A stretch of DNA of 64,000 nucleotides from Rhodanobacteraceae bacterium (lineage in GTDB: Bacteria > Pseudomonadota > Gammaproteobacteria > Xanthomonadales > Rhodanobacteraceae): assembly GCA_009996615.1 (NCBI GenBank), contig JAACZU010000018.1, positions 1-64,000 on the forward strand. The letters are read 5' to 3'. Every line of letters begins with the position of its first letter. Position 1 is the first letter of the stretch. Shown piece by piece: positions 14,910-34,849 of this stretch. The translations under genes and the position numbers were made by a program. The notes below the pieces were generated by a model, which saw only the letters and a list, made by a program, of their open reading frames with translations, was not told where the DNA came from and did no database searches.

Positions 14910-18021
<3,112 letters not shown>

Positions 18022-28686: not shown

Positions 28687-31617
28687 ATGCCGCACGCGCA
28701 TCTGAACCTCAATCGCCCGACCGGCGACGAGGTCAAGACGACCACGTGCTACATGTGCGCGTGCCGCTGCGGCATCCGCGTGCACCTGAAGGATGGCCGC
28801 GTGCGCTACATCGACGGCAATCCGCGCCACCCGGTCAACCAGGGCGTGATCTGCGCCAAGGGCTCGGCCGGCATCATGCAGCACTACTCGCCGGCGCGGC
28901 TGTCGAAACCCTTGCTGCGCGTGGGCGAACGCGGCGAGGGGCGCTTTCGCGAGATCGAGTGGGACGAGGCGCTCGCGCTGGCGGCGCAATGGCTCGGCGA
29001 CATCCGCGCGCGCAATCCGGACGAACTGGCGTTCTTCACCGGGCGCGACCAGAGCCAGGCGCTGACCGGCTGGTGGGCGCAGCAATTTGGAACCGTGAAC
29101 TATGCCGCACACGGCGGCTTCTGCTCGGTCAACATGGCCGCGGCCGGCCTCTACACGCTTGGCGGCAGCTTCTGGGAATTCGGCGAGCCGGACTGGCAGG
29201 ACACCAAGTACCTGATGCTGTGGGGCGTGGCCGAGGACCACGACTCGAACCCGATCAAGCTCGGCCTCGGCCAGCTGAAGGCGCGCGGCGCGAAGATCGT
29301 CGCGGTCAACCCGGTGCGGACCGGCTACGGCGCGATCGCCGACGAATGGGTGCCGATCAATCCCGGCACCGACGGCCTGCTCGCCGGCGCGCTGATCCAC
29401 GAACTCTTGCGCTGCGATCGCGTCGACCTCGACTACCTCGTGCGCTACACGAATGCGCATCACCTGGTGATCCAGGCGCCGGGCGAAGCGGACGACGGGC
29501 TGGTTGCGTGCGATGCGGAGGGCCATCCGCTGTGCGCCGCTCATGCCCGTCGTCCCGGCGATGGCCGGGGCGACGAGGACGGGAGTCCGTGCGACGACGA
29601 TTACTGCATCGTCGATGCGACCGCGATCGACATCGCACCGCGCATCGTCGGCGAAGTCACGCTGCCCGACGGCCGCCGCGCGGTGCCGGCGTTCCAGTTG
29701 TTCGCCGAACGCTTCATGGCCAACGCCTACGCGCCGGACACGGTCGCGCCGACCTGCGGCGTGCCGGCCGAAACGATCCGCCGCCTCGCGCGCGAGCTCG
29801 CCGACACCGCGTTCGAGCAGGCGATCACGCTGGAGCAGCCGTGGACCGACGCCTGGGGCCGCGAACACGCGACGATGACCGGCCGGCCGGTCGCGATGCA
29901 TGCAATGCGCGGCATCAGCGCGCACGCGAACGGCTTCCACACCTGCCGCACGCTGCACCTGCTGCAGATGCTGCTCGGCGCGATCGACACGCCCGGCAGC
30001 TTCCGCTACCAACCGCCGTTCCCGAAGGCGGTGCCGCCGCCGAACCGGCCCGGCAAGGCGCGCAAGGACAACGGCACGCTCGATGCCGGCCCGCTCGGCT
30101 TCGTGCACACGCCGGCCGACCTCGTCGTCGATGCGCACGGCCAGCCGCGCCGCATCGACAAGGCGTTCTCGTGGCAGCATCCGTTCGCCGCGCACGGCAT
30201 GCTGCAGAACGTGATCGCGAACGCGGTCGCGGGCGATCCGTACCGCATCGACACGCTGTTCCTGTTCATGGCCAACATGGGCTGGAACTCGGCGATGAAC
30301 ACGAGCGCCACGCGCGACATGTTGCGCGCGCGCGATCCGGCGAGCGGCGAGTACACGATCCCGCACATCATCTACGCCGACGCCTACGATTCGGAGACGG
30401 TCGCGTTCGCCGACCTCGTGCTGCCGGACACGACCTACCTCGAACGCCACGACTGCATCAGCCTGCTCGACCGCCCGATCTCCGACGCCGACGGCGCCGG
30501 CGATGCGATCCGCCGGCCGGTCGTGCCGCCCGATGCCGATGGCAGCGGGCGCGACGTGCGGCCGTTCCAGGACGTGCTGCTCGAACTCGGCGCGCGCCTG
30601 AAGCTGCCGGGCCTCGTCGACGCCGACGGCGCGCCGCTCTACCGCGACTACGCCGACTACATCGTGCGCCACGAGCGCGCGCCCGGCGTCGGCCTGCTCG
30701 CCGGCTGGCGCGGCGAAGACGGCGGCGAGGCCGGCATCGGCGCGCCGAATCCGCAGCAGCTCGCACGCTACGTCGAGCACGACTGCCACTGGCACCATGC
30801 GGTCCCGGCGGCCGGCCGCTACTACAAGATGGCCAACCGCGATTACCTGGACTGGGCCAAAGGGCTCGGCTTCATCGGCACGACGCAGCCGATCGTGCTG
30901 CAGTTCTACGCCGAGTCGCTGCAGCGCTTCCGCCTCGCCGCGCAGGGGCATGGCGCGCAGCAGCCGCCCGCGGCCGAGCGTGCGCGCGTCGCGCGCTATT
31001 TCGATCCGCTGCCGTTCTGGTATGGGGCCGATGACGTGGGCGCATCCGCATCGTCGTCAGGAACACCATCCCCACCCAACCCTCCCCTTGAAGGGGAGGG
31101 CTCGAAAGCACGGCCCTCGGCCCTCGGCGCTCAGTCCTATCCGCTCGCCGCGATCACCCAGCGCCCGATGTTCATGTACCACGCCTGGGGTTCGCAGAAC
31201 CGCTGGCTGCGCCAGATCGCGACACGGAACTACCTGTACCTGCATCCGGACACTGCCGCGGCGCACGGCGTCGCCGACGAGGACTGGATCTGGCTGGCCA
31301 GTCCGCGCGGGCGCATCCGCGTGCAGGCGCGCCTGCACACCGGCACCGCGCCCGGCACGGTGTGGACCTGGAACGCGATCGGCAAGCGCAAGGGCGCGTG
31401 GAAGCTTGCCGCGGACGCGCCGGAGAACGCCGACGGCTTCCTGCTCAACCACCTGATCGACGAATCGCTGCGCGCACGCGACGGCCGCGCCGGCTACGCG
31501 AACGCGGATCCCGTCACCGGCCAGGCCGCGTGGTTCGACCTGCGCGTGCGCATCGAGCGCGACGCGCAGCCGCGCCTGACCGGTCATCGCATCGAGATGA
31601 ACGAGACTCCGGCATGA
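28687..31617 (+). CDS. soeA: Molybdopterin oxidoreductase, catalytic subunit, SoeA-type (sulfite dehydrogenase)
   Basis: A 976-residue DMSO reductase-family enzyme. A [4Fe-4S] site is formed by C21, C24, C28 and C56 (CYMCACRCG ... VICAKGS). Landmarks such as FFTGRDQSQALTGWWAQQFGT, HGGFCSVNMAAAGLYTLGG, MRGISAHANGFHTCRTLH, LPDTTYLERHDCISLLDRP and TQRPMFMYHAWGSQNRWLRQI match SoeA of cytoplasmic sulfite dehydrogenases. There is no Tat signal, agreeing with a cytoplasm-facing SoeA that passes electrons to quinone through SoeB and SoeC. Two stretches are derived from intergenic repeats, residues about 284-301 (family F) and 792-808 (family C); both keep the frame. The start at 28687 avoids a non-conserved Arg-rich leader. 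The substrate is by homology only. Confidence 0.75.
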   Translation: MPHAHLNLNRPTGDEVKTTTCYMCACRCGIRVHLKDGRVRYIDGNPRHPVNQGVICAKGSAGIMQHYSPARLSKPLLRVGERGEGRFREIEWDEALALAAQWLGDIRARNPDELAFFTGRDQSQALTGWWAQQFGTVNYAAHGGFCSVNMAAAGLYTLGGSFWEFGEPDWQDTKYLMLWGVAEDHDSNPIKLGLGQLKARGAKIVAVNPVRTGYGAIADEWVPINPGTDGLLAGALIHELLRCDRVDLDYLVRYTNAHHLVIQAPGEADDGLVACDAEGHPLCAAHARRPGDGRGDEDGSPCDDDYCIVDATAIDIAPRIVGEVTLPDGRRAVPAFQLFAERFMANAYAPDTVAPTCGVPAETIRRLARELADTAFEQAITLEQPWTDAWGREHATMTGRPVAMHAMRGISAHANGFHTCRTLHLLQMLLGAIDTPGSFRYQPPFPKAVPPPNRPGKARKDNGTLDAGPLGFVHTPADLVVDAHGQPRRIDKAFSWQHPFAAHGMLQNVIANAVAGDPYRIDTLFLFMANMGWNSAMNTSATRDMLRARDPASGEYTIPHIIYADAYDSETVAFADLVLPDTTYLERHDCISLLDRPISDADGAGDAIRRPVVPPDADGSGRDVRPFQDVLLELGARLKLPGLVDADGAPLYRDYADYIVRHERAPGVGLLAGWRGEDGGEAGIGAPNPQQLARYVEHDCHWHHAVPAAGRYYKMANRDYLDWAKGLGFIGTTQPIVLQFYAESLQRFRLAAQGHGAQQPPAAERARVARYFDPLPFWYGADDVGASASSSGTPSPPNPPLEGEGSKARPSALGAQSYPLAAITQRPMFMYHAWGSQNRWLRQIATRNYLYLHPDTAAAHGVADEDWIWLASPRGRIRVQARLHTGTAPGTVWTWNAIGKRKGAWKLAADAPENADGFLLNHLIDESLRARDGRAGYANADPVTGQAAWFDLRVRIERDAQPRLTGHRIEMNETPA
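29541..29588. repeat. Family F palindrome inside soeA
   Basis: CGTCGTCCCGGCGATGGCCG followed by GGGCGACGAGGACGGG is an inverted repeat of the intergenic type also seen at 11599, 55325 and 59183. Here it is translated in frame as HARRPGDGRGDEDGSP, in a loop between two conserved blocks of the enzyme. Confidence 0.7.
31060..31110. repeat. Family C element inside soeA
   Basis: This is a full-length copy of the intergenic family C element (ACACCATCCCCACCCAACCC, the palindrome, then GCTCGAAAGCA). It is read in frame as GTPSPPNPPLEGEGSKA. It sits at residues 792-808, between the WYGADD and YPLAAITQRPM blocks. Its sequence is as close to consensus as the non-coding copies, which suggests recent insertion. 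Confidence 0.9.
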
Positions 31618-32468
31618 CCTCGCTGCCTGCTCCGACCCCGAAGAAACTCGGCCTGGTCATCGACCTCGACACCTGCGTCGGCTGCCACGCCTGCGCGGTC
31701 GCGTGCAAGGAATGGAACGACGGCGGCGACTTCGGCCCGCTGCCGGACGCCGACCCGTACGGCGCGCAGCCGCGCGGCGTCTGGTTCAACCGCGTGCATT
31801 CGTATGCGGTGGAGCCGGGAATCGGGCTAGCGCCGGGAATCGGGAATCGGGAATCGGGAATCGCAGGAGCAAAAGACAACGCGTCGAGCCCGCGCGCAGC
31901 CGCTTCTCCCATTCCCGATTCCCCATTCCCCATTCCCGGCCTTACCGTGCACTTCCCCCGCTCGTGCCTGCACTGCGAGACGCCGGCCTGCGTGACGGTG
32001 TGCCCGACCGGCGCGAGCTACAAGCGCGCCGAGGACGGCATCGTGCTGGTCGACGCGGACAAGTGCATCGGCTGCCAACTGTGCGCCTGGGCCTGCCCGT
32101 ACGGCGCACGCGAATTCAGCGTGCAGAAGGGCACGATGCAGAAGTGCACGCTGTGCGTCGACCGCATCTACAACGAGACGCTCGACGAGGCCGACCGCCA
32201 GCCGGCCTGCGTGCTGGCCTGCCCGACGCGCGCGCGGCACTTCGGCGACCTCGGCGATGCGGACTCGCCGGTCTCGCAGCTCGTCGCCGAACGCGGCGGC
32301 CATGCGCTGATGCCGGAGTTCGGCTACCGGCCGGTCAACCGCTACCTGCCGCCGCGGCCGCGCCGCGATGCCAGCACCGCGCAGCCGGCCGCGCCGCGCG
32401 AGGAAACGCTCGACCGCGAAAAACTGCCCGGCGTGCTGCGCTGGCTCGACCGCGTGCTGTCGCGCTGA
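31614..32468 (+). CDS. soeB: 4Fe-4S ferredoxin subunit of SoeABC-type oxidoreductase
   Basis: A 284-residue DmsB-like electron-transfer subunit with four [4Fe-4S] motifs: CVGCHACAVACKEW, CLHCETPACVTVCPTG, CIGCQLCAWACPYG, and CTLCVDRI with CVLACPTRARHFG. It relays electrons from the molybdenum subunit to the membrane anchor. It overlaps soeA by four bases (ATGA). Residues about 68-109 are not conserved protein but the translation of a family E inverted-repeat element (repeated GGGAATC and its complement). This explains a length some 40 residues above normal. The insertion falls between the first and second cluster motifs and preserves the frame. Confidence 0.82.
   Translation: MTSLPAPTPKKLGLVIDLDTCVGCHACAVACKEWNDGGDFGPLPDADPYGAQPRGVWFNRVHSYAVEPGIGLAPGIGNRESGIAGAKDNASSPRAAASPIPDSPFPIPGLTVHFPRSCLHCETPACVTVCPTGASYKRAEDGIVLVDADKCIGCQLCAWACPYGAREFSVQKGTMQKCTLCVDRIYNETLDEADRQPACVLACPTRARHFGDLGDADSPVSQLVAERGGHALMPEFGYRPVNRYLPPRPRRDASTAQPAAPREETLDREKLPGVLRWLDRVLSR
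31816..31940. repeat. Family E element inside soeB
   Basis: The left arm has four tandem GGGAATC heptamers. The right arm about 65 nt later carries the complement (ATTCCCGATTCCCCATTCCC). The same element type lies between hslV and hslU (56730-56826). Here it is translated as PGIGLAPGIGNRESGIAG and further to [11 protein letters not shown] without a stop codon. Confidence 0.88.
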
Positions 32469-32481
32469 GGATCCAACCACG

Positions 32482-33510
32482 ATGCGGCCGACGTTCTCGA
32501 TCATCTGCTTCACCGTGCTGTCCGGGCTTGGCTATGGCGCGTGGTTCCTGCTCGGCCTGCTCGCCGCCGCCGACTGGCCGTGCGGGCCGGCGTGGACGCC
32601 ATCGCCCGACCTGTGCCTGCGGCCGGGTGCGCCGGCGTGGCTCGGACCGATCGGCTTCGTGCTGGTCAGCGCCGGCCTGCTGTGTTCGCTCGGCCATCTC
32701 GGCCAGCCGCAACGCGCCTGGCGCGCGCTGTCGCAATGGCGTAGTTCGTGGCTGTCGCGCGAAGGCGTCGCCGCATTGCTGACCTTCCTGCCGGCCGTCG
32801 CGCTGGTGCTGCTCGACTTCGCTGCCGCCGGCGCGCTGGCCGGGCTCGCGCCGGCCGACGCGCACGCGCTGCGGGCCGGCGGCATGCCCGTGCGCGCGCT
32901 GCTCGGCGGCCTGCTCGCGCTCGGCGCGCTGTCGACCGTGGTCTGCACCGCGAACATCTACGCCAGCCTCAAGCCGATCCGCGCCTGGCACGACCGCCAC
33001 GTGGTACCCGGCTACCTGCTGCTCGGCCTGTACGGCGGCATGCTGCTGGCGTGGCTGGCCGACGCCCTGCCCGGCTGGTCGATCGGCACCAGCGAACGCC
33101 GGATCCTGCTGATCGGTCTGATCGCGCTCGCGCTCGCCGGTGCCTGGCTCAAGCACCGCTACTGGCGCTCGATCGACGCACAACCGGCGACGAGCGCCGG
33201 CCACGCGACCGGTCTGTCCGCGCTCGGCACGGTGCGCTCGTTCGAACAGCCGCACACCGAGGACAACTACCTCACGCACGAGATGGGCTTCGTGCTCGCG
33301 CGCAAGCATGCGCGCAAGCTGCGCCGGAACACGCTCGCCGCCGCGTTCCTGCTGCCCGCGCTGCTCGCGATGCTCGCGCTCGCGATGCCGGCGATCCAGC
33401 CGCTTGCGGCGTGGCTCGCACTCGCCAGCGGCCTCGCCGGCCTGTTCGTCGAGCGCTGGCTGTTCTTCGCCGAGGCGAAGCACACGGTGATGGCCTACTA
33501 CGGCCGCTGA
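32482..33510 (+). CDS. soeC: DmsC-like membrane anchor of SoeABC-type oxidoreductase
   Basis: A 342-residue integral membrane protein of the DmsC/SoeC family with eight or more helices. It anchors the catalytic dimer and hands electrons to quinone. It begins MRPTFSIICFTVLSGLGYGAW and has SLGHLGQPQRAWRALSQWRSSWLSREGV and STVVCTANIYASLKPIRAWHDRHVVPGYLLLGL, both typical. The C-terminus RWLFFAEAKHTVMAYYGR is also characteristic of the family. It starts 13 nt after soeB and is in the same operon. No repeat insertion is seen here. Confidence 0.85.
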   Translation: MRPTFSIICFTVLSGLGYGAWFLLGLLAAADWPCGPAWTPSPDLCLRPGAPAWLGPIGFVLVSAGLLCSLGHLGQPQRAWRALSQWRSSWLSREGVAALLTFLPAVALVLLDFAAAGALAGLAPADAHALRAGGMPVRALLGGLLALGALSTVVCTANIYASLKPIRAWHDRHVVPGYLLLGLYGGMLLAWLADALPGWSIGTSERRILLIGLIALALAGAWLKHRYWRSIDAQPATSAGHATGLSALGTVRSFEQPHTEDNYLTHEMGFVLARKHARKLRRNTLAAAFLLPALLAMLALAMPAIQPLAAWLALASGLAGLFVERWLFFAEAKHTVMAYYGR

Positions 33511-34531: not shown

Positions 34532-34596
34532 AGCAACCGGCGGAAATCATCGCGGCGGCAGCCACCCGGGACGCGGCACGGGACCCGTAGCGCTTT

Positions 34597-34672
34597 GGTG
34601 GGACTCGCCGGCGAAAAGTCGCGTTTCGACCCAGCGCGCCACGCGGCTGCGTCCTACCCTACGCGGCCGAAC
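34597..34672. repeat. 76-bp intergenic repeat, copy 1
   Basis: Begins GGTGGGACTCGCCGGCGAAA and ends GCGGCCGAAC. The second copy, at 34752, has the same length and about 90% identity. The 79 nt between them contain a GTAGCCGGGGTAAGCGATG type repeat. Together these fill the 350-nt gap between the DUF481 gene and hemC, where no gene was found. Confidence 0.85.
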
Positions 34673-34751
34673 CGCAAGGTAGCCGGGGTAAGCGATGCGC
34701 ACCCGGGTTGTTCGGATGATCCCAGCGTGCGGCACGGATCCGAGGCGCCGC

Positions 34752-34827
34752 GGTGGGACTCGCCGGCGAAAAGTTGCGCTTCGACCCAGCGCGCGACGCG
34801 GCTGCGTCCCACCCTACGGAGCTGAAC
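34752..34827. repeat. 76-bp intergenic repeat, copy 2
   Basis: Direct repeat of 34597-34672 with about eight mismatches. It ends 22 nt before the hemC stop codon. Confidence 0.85.
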
Positions 34828-34849
34828 AGCATCGCGGCGGAAGCCACCC

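Follow-up and report, generated by a model that had tools for sequence, protein, structure and literature searches.

Short dispersed repeats lie in frame within soeA and soeB, two adjacent genes of a molybdoenzyme operon in a 64,000-nucleotide stretch of a Rhodanobacteraceae bacterium (assembly GCA_009996615.1, contig JAACZU010000018.1, positions 1 to 64,000; hereafter the window). The repeats belong to families here called F, C and E and occupy three loops of the encoded proteins. We consider it very probable that they are tolerated in-frame repeats that turn over in these loops, with the enzyme keeping its cores and cofactor ligands. Several unrelated families of short palindromic repeats would multiply in these genomes, mostly between genes, and intragenic copies would survive if the frame is kept and the site is a loop or domain linker that tolerates extra residues. 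Three such places would exist in the two proteins: a loop of the molybdopterin domain, the linker that precedes the molybdopterin-dinucleotide-binding domain and, in SoeB, the stretch that joins the first ferredoxin part to the rest. Repeats would have accumulated and turned over there. Insertion would be blind, with selection doing the sorting. The repeat peptides, presumably translated and unstructured, would be passengers, with the frame but not the peptide sequence under selection.

Repeat elements and variable loops in SoeA and SoeB

The gene soeA (28687-31617, forward strand) encodes a molybdopterin subunit of 976 amino acids (Pfam Molybdopterin, Molybdop_Fe4S4 and Molydop_binding). Its stop is overlapped by the start of soeB (31614-32468, forward strand), which encodes a four-cluster ferredoxin subunit of 284 amino acids (Pfam Fer4_11 and others). 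The membrane anchor is encoded by soeC (32482-33510, forward strand; Pfam DmsC). No NCBIfam model was found at its cut-off for the SoeABC proteins of the window. The name SoeABC was given in an earlier note on this DNA and is used as a label only; the closest solved relative is PsrABC (2vpw). Polysulfide reductase PsrA (2vpw_A) was nearest to the soeA product, and PsrB (2vpw_B) was nearest to SoeB both by sequence and by fold. The earlier note had described the three repeats as in-frame insertions between conserved blocks. All three were confirmed, with correct residue numbers and reading frames open through F, C and E, and no frameshift was found in the operon in the window assembly.

Family F is a near-perfect palindrome, CGTCGTCCCGGC-GATG-GCCGGGGCGACG, at 29548-29575 in loop 1 of SoeA. 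Its 12-nt arms are 92% complementary (fold z -4.3). Copies were searched for in the own assembly, which comprises 3,910,402 bases in 40 contigs, the window being contig 18. F is a low-copy repeat: it was found in 9 places at two or fewer mismatches versus 1 for a reversed control pattern, and blastn returned just 6 matches, the 5 besides itself all being weak. The candidate reading of F as a CGTC-tagged repetitive extragenic palindrome (REP) was ruled out, as its CGTC pairs with GACG at the other end; F has a loop of 4 and a stem of 12 with one mismatch, versus a stem of 8-9 bp and a loop of 4-5 bp in CGTC-REPs.

Family C is represented by a 48-nt element at 31062-31109 in loop 2 of SoeA, read as TPSPPNPPLEGEGSK; its peptide GTPSPPNPPLEGEGSKA had been read correctly in the earlier note. 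It contains a perfect 10-nt hairpin at 31080-31100 (fold z -2.2, 7 of 200 shuffles as good). At least 40 further copies with 91-100% identity over 44-57 bases were found in the assembly, a lower bound, as 40 of 176 candidates were scored. Directly 3' of C lies a short array of CGGCCCT heptamers (31111-31134), a fourth repeat type that had been missed before. The array pattern had an exact match also in loop 2 of soeA in L066 (genome G033) and L061 (G210). It was further seen elsewhere in L047.

Family E is an inverted repeat at 31832-31940 in soeB, with GGGAATC heptamer arms at 31832-31870 and 31902-31940. The 39-nt arms are 87% complementary (fold z -5.1), the coding strand carries four perfect consecutive GGGAATC units, and 99 matches were found in the own assembly. 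The element had been given as 31816-31940. The inverted repeat is real, but 31816-31831 is an extra partial copy of the arm start that lies outside it and has no aligned base in G028 or G033 in the DNA alignment. With regard to miniature inverted-repeat transposable elements, E has terminal inverted repeats; the edges of filled versus empty SoeB sites, inspected for a target-site duplication, align poorly.

The repeats were then placed on alignments with homologues. At E 0.001, 221 of the 233 genomes in the family gave SoeB-like matches. Most of these matches were distant and of ferredoxin type; 54 loci with close matches were taken for comparison. Length variation was analyzed in 36 SoeA and 53 SoeB rows, after partial rows had been dropped from totals of 50 and 55. 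Loop 1 of SoeA (residues 289-306, 29551-29604, forward strand), which carries F inside the molybdopterin domain, ranged from 0 to 61 residues between anchors 288 and 307. Loop 2 (residues 786-812, 31042-31122, forward strand) carries C in the linker before Molydop_binding, which starts at residue 821, and ranged from 0 to 62 between anchors 785 and 813. The SoeB loop (residues 69-104, 31818-31925, forward strand), which carries E, ranged from 0 to 42 between anchors 68 and 105. Only these three repeat loops varied by more than 15 residues; the only other anchor gaps with a range of at least 6 were SoeB 170-171 (15) and 256-258 (7). Thus the length-variable sites coincide with the repeats, and relatives fill them variously, which supports tolerance of loops, one of the two causes suggested in the earlier note.

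In the SoeB alignment the stretch between GVWFNRVHSYxV and TVHFPRSCLHCE ranges from short to long. The loop has 50 residues in the window versus a median of 13 outside Lysobacterales, where it is uniformly short (13-19 residues in 47 rows, by record name mostly Alphaproteobacteria). It measured 13-58 residues in 54 family rows, 15-79 in 33 Lysobacterales-like rows and 17-18 in four genomes of the same genus (G029, G032, G036 and G042). The excess is therefore 32-37 residues, close to the roughly 40 claimed earlier. Repeat-free close relatives provide the empty sites; their segments are short and variable, and conserved protein does not take the place of the repeats. By sequence, about 70 residues of the window SoeB (37-106) correspond to about 17 in PsrB. 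In a SoeB model of modest confidence (mean predicted local distance difference test score, pLDDT, 66.1; predicted template modelling score 0.62), for which PsrB was the best fold match, the insert is placed between strands 62-66 and 110-114. Residues 71-94 and 96-98 have a pLDDT below 50, but so have residues 39-61, so that low confidence is not special to the insert.

An E-type heptamer score exceeding all but at most one of 200 shuffles was obtained for the SoeB loop in 17 of 54 family rows. These rows belong to genera g1, g4 and g2 and, weakly, g18, with mostly GGGACTC as the unit in g2. E-rich genomes tend to carry an E-type SoeB loop. Eight genomes with 39-78 E matches (G018, G020, G022, G023, G025, G026, G028 and G033) have scoring loops. 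The loops lack an E score in five genomes with no E match (G019, G021, G024, G029 and G042) and in five with 5-27 matches (G027, G030, G032, G036 and G039). Three genomes depart from this trend: G008 (3 matches) and G138 (none), with weakly scoring loops, and G035, which has 87 E matches and no close SoeB match.

The SoeA loops are also filled differently. In the window loop 1 is occupied by F, in G033 by a C-type element and in G036 by another C-like one, and G032, G012, G013, G015 and G016 have CGTC-bounded elements there. In loop 2, the window, G028 and G029 carry C or C-like elements, and G030 has one that is CGTC-bounded. Loop 1 elements are multi-copy in their own genomes, with 48 matches in G015 and 61 in G036, each counting itself. 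Searching 167,646 bases of soeA and soeB, leaving out L063 and L091, with seven repeat queries matched 24 loop-genome pairs, 6 of which were the queries' own sources. Just three matches fell outside the loops, all inside the SoeA fragment L088, which itself begins in loop 1.

Selection on the enzyme and history of the SoeB insertion

Ratios of nonsynonymous to synonymous substitution rates (dN/dS) were estimated with NG86 on the cores for the window against G028, G033, G029 and G030, with SoeC as comparison gene. The ratios, which are rough, were about 0.22-0.25 for SoeA, 0.12-0.20 for SoeB and 0.37-0.52 for SoeC in the four pairs. The SoeA and SoeB cores are under purifying selection. In addition, the 16 cluster cysteines of SoeB were all kept in every covering row (54-55 rows).

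The insert itself behaves differently from the core. In the SoeB insert shared with G028 and G033, substitutions were spread over the codon positions (7, 6, 5 and 10, 7, 9), versus a third-position excess in the core (16, 9, 41 and 14, 9, 54; Fisher p 0.015 and 0.002). Where the E loops of these three genomes differ by indels, the lengths are multiples of three. This pattern marks a tolerated peptide within a protein that is selected to keep its frame. The enzyme probably works, since all 16 cysteines are kept, the cores are under purifying selection and a codon-position bias is absent from the SoeB insert. It would then be the loops that are relaxed rather than the enzyme.

The best match of the window E in G028 and in G033 was their own soeB copy, which suggests one old insertion for the three genomes. 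On a tree of 48 rows, from which 7 of 55 had been omitted because of missing data, 5 changes of the E state are required, and well-supported branches force at least 4 of them. A single gain with losses, separate gains or exchange between species are possible histories.

Several observations weigh against the reading of tolerated repeats that turn over. With the seven queries, recognised repeats were found in only 8 of 39, 4 of 49 and 12 of 53 covered loops. Many long loops, among them those of the GNGPLQQL type in genus g25, are not recognised repeats, and inserts of other kinds are tolerated in the loops as well. About 9 codons of the empty relatives are missing from the filled SoeB site, which is thus not a clean insertion. 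The filled G028 is sister to the empty G029 with a support of 100, so that loss, transfer or separate gain must be invoked. Finally, YN00 estimates were obtained in only 3 of 12 window pairs and had dS of 1.5-1.8, so that the dN/dS ratios are rough.

Repeats elsewhere in the genome and alternative explanations

We examined 66 stretches around E and C copies of the own assembly, in which the coding frames of the flanks were judged by a codon model. Among 49 E places, 28 lay between two genes, 8 had the same frame on both sides with a stop, 10 rows were in frame, 2 were one-sided and 1 was at an edge. Only 2 of 50 C places were in frame. One in-frame E row, L174, was rejected as a wrong-frame call (arginine-rich, no family), and the two in-frame rows in L176 represent one gene and were counted once. 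E is accordingly in frame in 8 genes: soeB, purL, metH, ccoG and the genes for an IcmF-type mutase, an AmgK-type kinase, an Ada-AlkA fusion and a large helicase. PurL, MetH and CcoG pass NCBIfam cut-offs; the other four were named below cut-off, including the IcmF-type mutase, which is cut by the end of the stretch. In-frame repeats are therefore not special to soeA and soeB. The three unrelated families pointed out by the earlier note are present in the operon, but not unique to the window; they are one case of a wider pattern. In relatives, judging the alignment by eye, E-type peptides were seen in the PurL loop in several of 24 rows, with a short LLGG-type loop in five, and the CcoG site was filled or short across 11 rows. 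Both kinds of repeat occur together in two cases. The helicase-like gene of the own genome, of 1546 residues (L192:127-4764), has E and C in frame, and purL of G015 (L289) has a C-like and an E-type peptide in tandem, together about 45 residues.

Of the 36 E places classed as between two genes or as having one frame on both sides and a stop, 34 are flanked by co-directional genes. The upstream stop was at or before E in 20 of the 34, inside E in 12 and after it in 2. Stops inside or after E mean that a few of these places may be disrupted genes. E was seen to fit tightly between co-directional genes, often with the upstream stop within a few bases and a possible start soon after.

Two properties of the repeats themselves were considered. 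GGGAATC is stop-free in all six frames, like 8260 of 16380 heptamers. Per element, E had 4.67 of 6 frames open versus 3.88 in shuffles and C had 4.13 versus 4.83 (42 and 45 elements). Since E lies above and C below its shuffles, a frame-proof repeat design would help E mildly and C not at all, and it was not retained. A mobiliser of the REP-associated tyrosine transposase type was also looked for. The assembly has two Y1_Tnp genes, and no convincing copy of E, C or F was found within about 3.3 kb around each of them (best E-value 0.019).

The three sites could be preferred targets at the DNA level, through directed insertion or replacement of one repeat by another, and not just places spared by selection. 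The same SoeB position has E-type repeats in g1 and g4 and GGGACTC variants in g2; loop 1 has mostly CGTC-bounded elements and loop 2 mostly C. The five changes of the E state in the tree, with at least four forced, are consistent with such targets. A precedent is given by PMC3733652, where different REPs are described at about the same recB site in two Xanthomonas species, X. campestris and X. oryzae. However, neither a target duplication nor a shared target motif was found, and selection on a few tolerant loops explains the same pattern. That the best E matches in G028 and G033 are their own soeB copies points to shared ancestry for part of it. We regard preferred targets as unlikely. Equally doubtful is a reading in which the three loops act across genera as standing sockets that lose their repeats and take up new ones from the family that abounds in the respective genome.

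The elements may instead be kept for an effect of the nucleic acid, with a GGGAATC quadruplex or hairpin in the soeB mRNA tuning translation or processing and the peptide as a side effect. E folds far better than shuffles and is found mostly at gene junctions, as in the 34 of 36 places above, and its coding strand has GGG tracts of a type described in PMC4692102 as forming quadruplexes in vitro. Across 11 loops, own arms paired better than swapped arms (4 of 2000 permutations). Within one heptamer class, however, own arms paired no better than those of other species (15970 of 40320 permutations as good). As the covariation exists between heptamer classes only, it was put down to the class difference, and a maintained RNA hairpin was rejected. 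Moreover, close relatives do without E, and F and C have different structures. A nucleic-acid effect as the reason for their retention is thus improbable.

The inserted peptides could also have gained a protein function, such as that of a flexible linker or of a contact segment within the complex. An E-type loop does occur in three genera and long loops are common in the family, but the insert lacks a codon-position bias, loop length and sequence differ widely and four close relatives manage with 17-18 residues; we consider such a function very unlikely. Very unlikely, too, is relaxed constraint on the enzyme, which the earlier note had proposed as one of two causes and which is taken here as an operon losing function, with the repeats marking a decaying enzyme. 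Although three inserts lie in two adjacent genes and the soeA of the relative G021 (L091) is broken into two reading frames, this was rejected in view of the low rates on the SoeA and SoeB cores, lower than for SoeC, of the 16 kept cysteines and of the frame, with no stop inside SoeB among the matches listed and the same repeats in purL and metH of the same genome.

The surroundings of the operon were also inspected. In several relatives soeA and soeB are separated by a gap of about 1.8 kb or more, versus the overlap in the window; in G029 this gap (L044:3656-5417) holds a gene that by eye resembles an ion transporter of the SLC13 kind. Within the window, two 96-nt copies (34581-34676 and 34736-34831), 85% identical and 155 nt apart, lie near a hemC-like gene. 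Further dispersed repeat pairs with GTAGGCTGGG and its complement and GC-rich arms occur at 2059-2182, 2897-2997 and 16697-16786; by eye they look like GTAG-tagged palindromes.

Relation to known repeats and significance

Rickettsia palindromic elements (RPE-1 and others) are dispersed palindromes from which housekeeping proteins gain extra peptides while the reading frame stays intact. The likeness to them that had been drawn earlier was supported: the loop repeats are palindromic, dispersed and multi-copy, F being low-copy, and lie in frame in genes for conserved proteins. The comparison was made by description. In contrast to Rickettsia, the host here is a free-living GC-rich gammaproteobacterium, and as far as seen the sequences seem unrelated.

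Intragenic GTAG and CGTC REPs, including some in DNA repair genes of several species, are described in PMC3733652, which also notes the in-frame Rickettsia elements RPE-4 and RPE-6 and suggests neutral insertion in flexible linkers or loops. The loop repeats resemble these REPs in being palindromic and read in frame within known proteins. They differ in that E and C carry no GTAG or CGTC tag and the CGTC of F is base-paired, and in that several families lie in three loops of one complex across a bacterial family.

GGGAATC heptameric repeats of Xanthomonas have been described by Rehm et al. (2015, PMC4692102). There, convergent pairs often form inverted repeats (70 cases in one genome), and the repeats lie mostly between co-directional genes, with 7-11% intragenic and at least partly overlapping an open reading frame; the term "in-frame" is absent from the main text. 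Family E is this published quadruplex-type repeat of xanthomonads. It has the same heptamer, with four perfect tandem units where at least two GGGAATC/GGGANTN units define the repeat, the same convergent inverted-repeat pairs and the same co-directional intergenic sites. In contrast to the published cases, E is here read in frame through conserved enzymes, and homologous sites were compared across genera.

The kind of insertion is thus already known, because intragenic REPs and GGGAATC repeats are described in PMC3733652 and PMC4692102. New here are several unrelated repeat families in the same loops across genera; no description of a lineage-wide filling of the same loops by several unrelated families was found in the open-access literature searched. 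As far as the evidence goes the mechanism is ordinary, and the case is unusually clear as a comparative one.

Annotators should be aware that PSPPNPPLEGEGS, GNRESGI or DSRFPIP stretches, where this order has them in its proteins, can stem from repeats inserted into real genes. If the loops were sockets after all, filled through targeted insertion or through exchange with the pool of repeats in the genome, a conserved enzyme would carry a changing, genome-specific set of repeat-coded peptides. In either case, the family offers a natural series of one enzyme complex whose same three positions are empty, hold a single repeat or carry repeats of different families, and some of the hosts are culturable. 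The series makes it possible to test what cost, if any, a quadruplex-type repeat within a reading frame has for the cell, how genomes come to read their dispersed repeats as protein and how long such peptides last.

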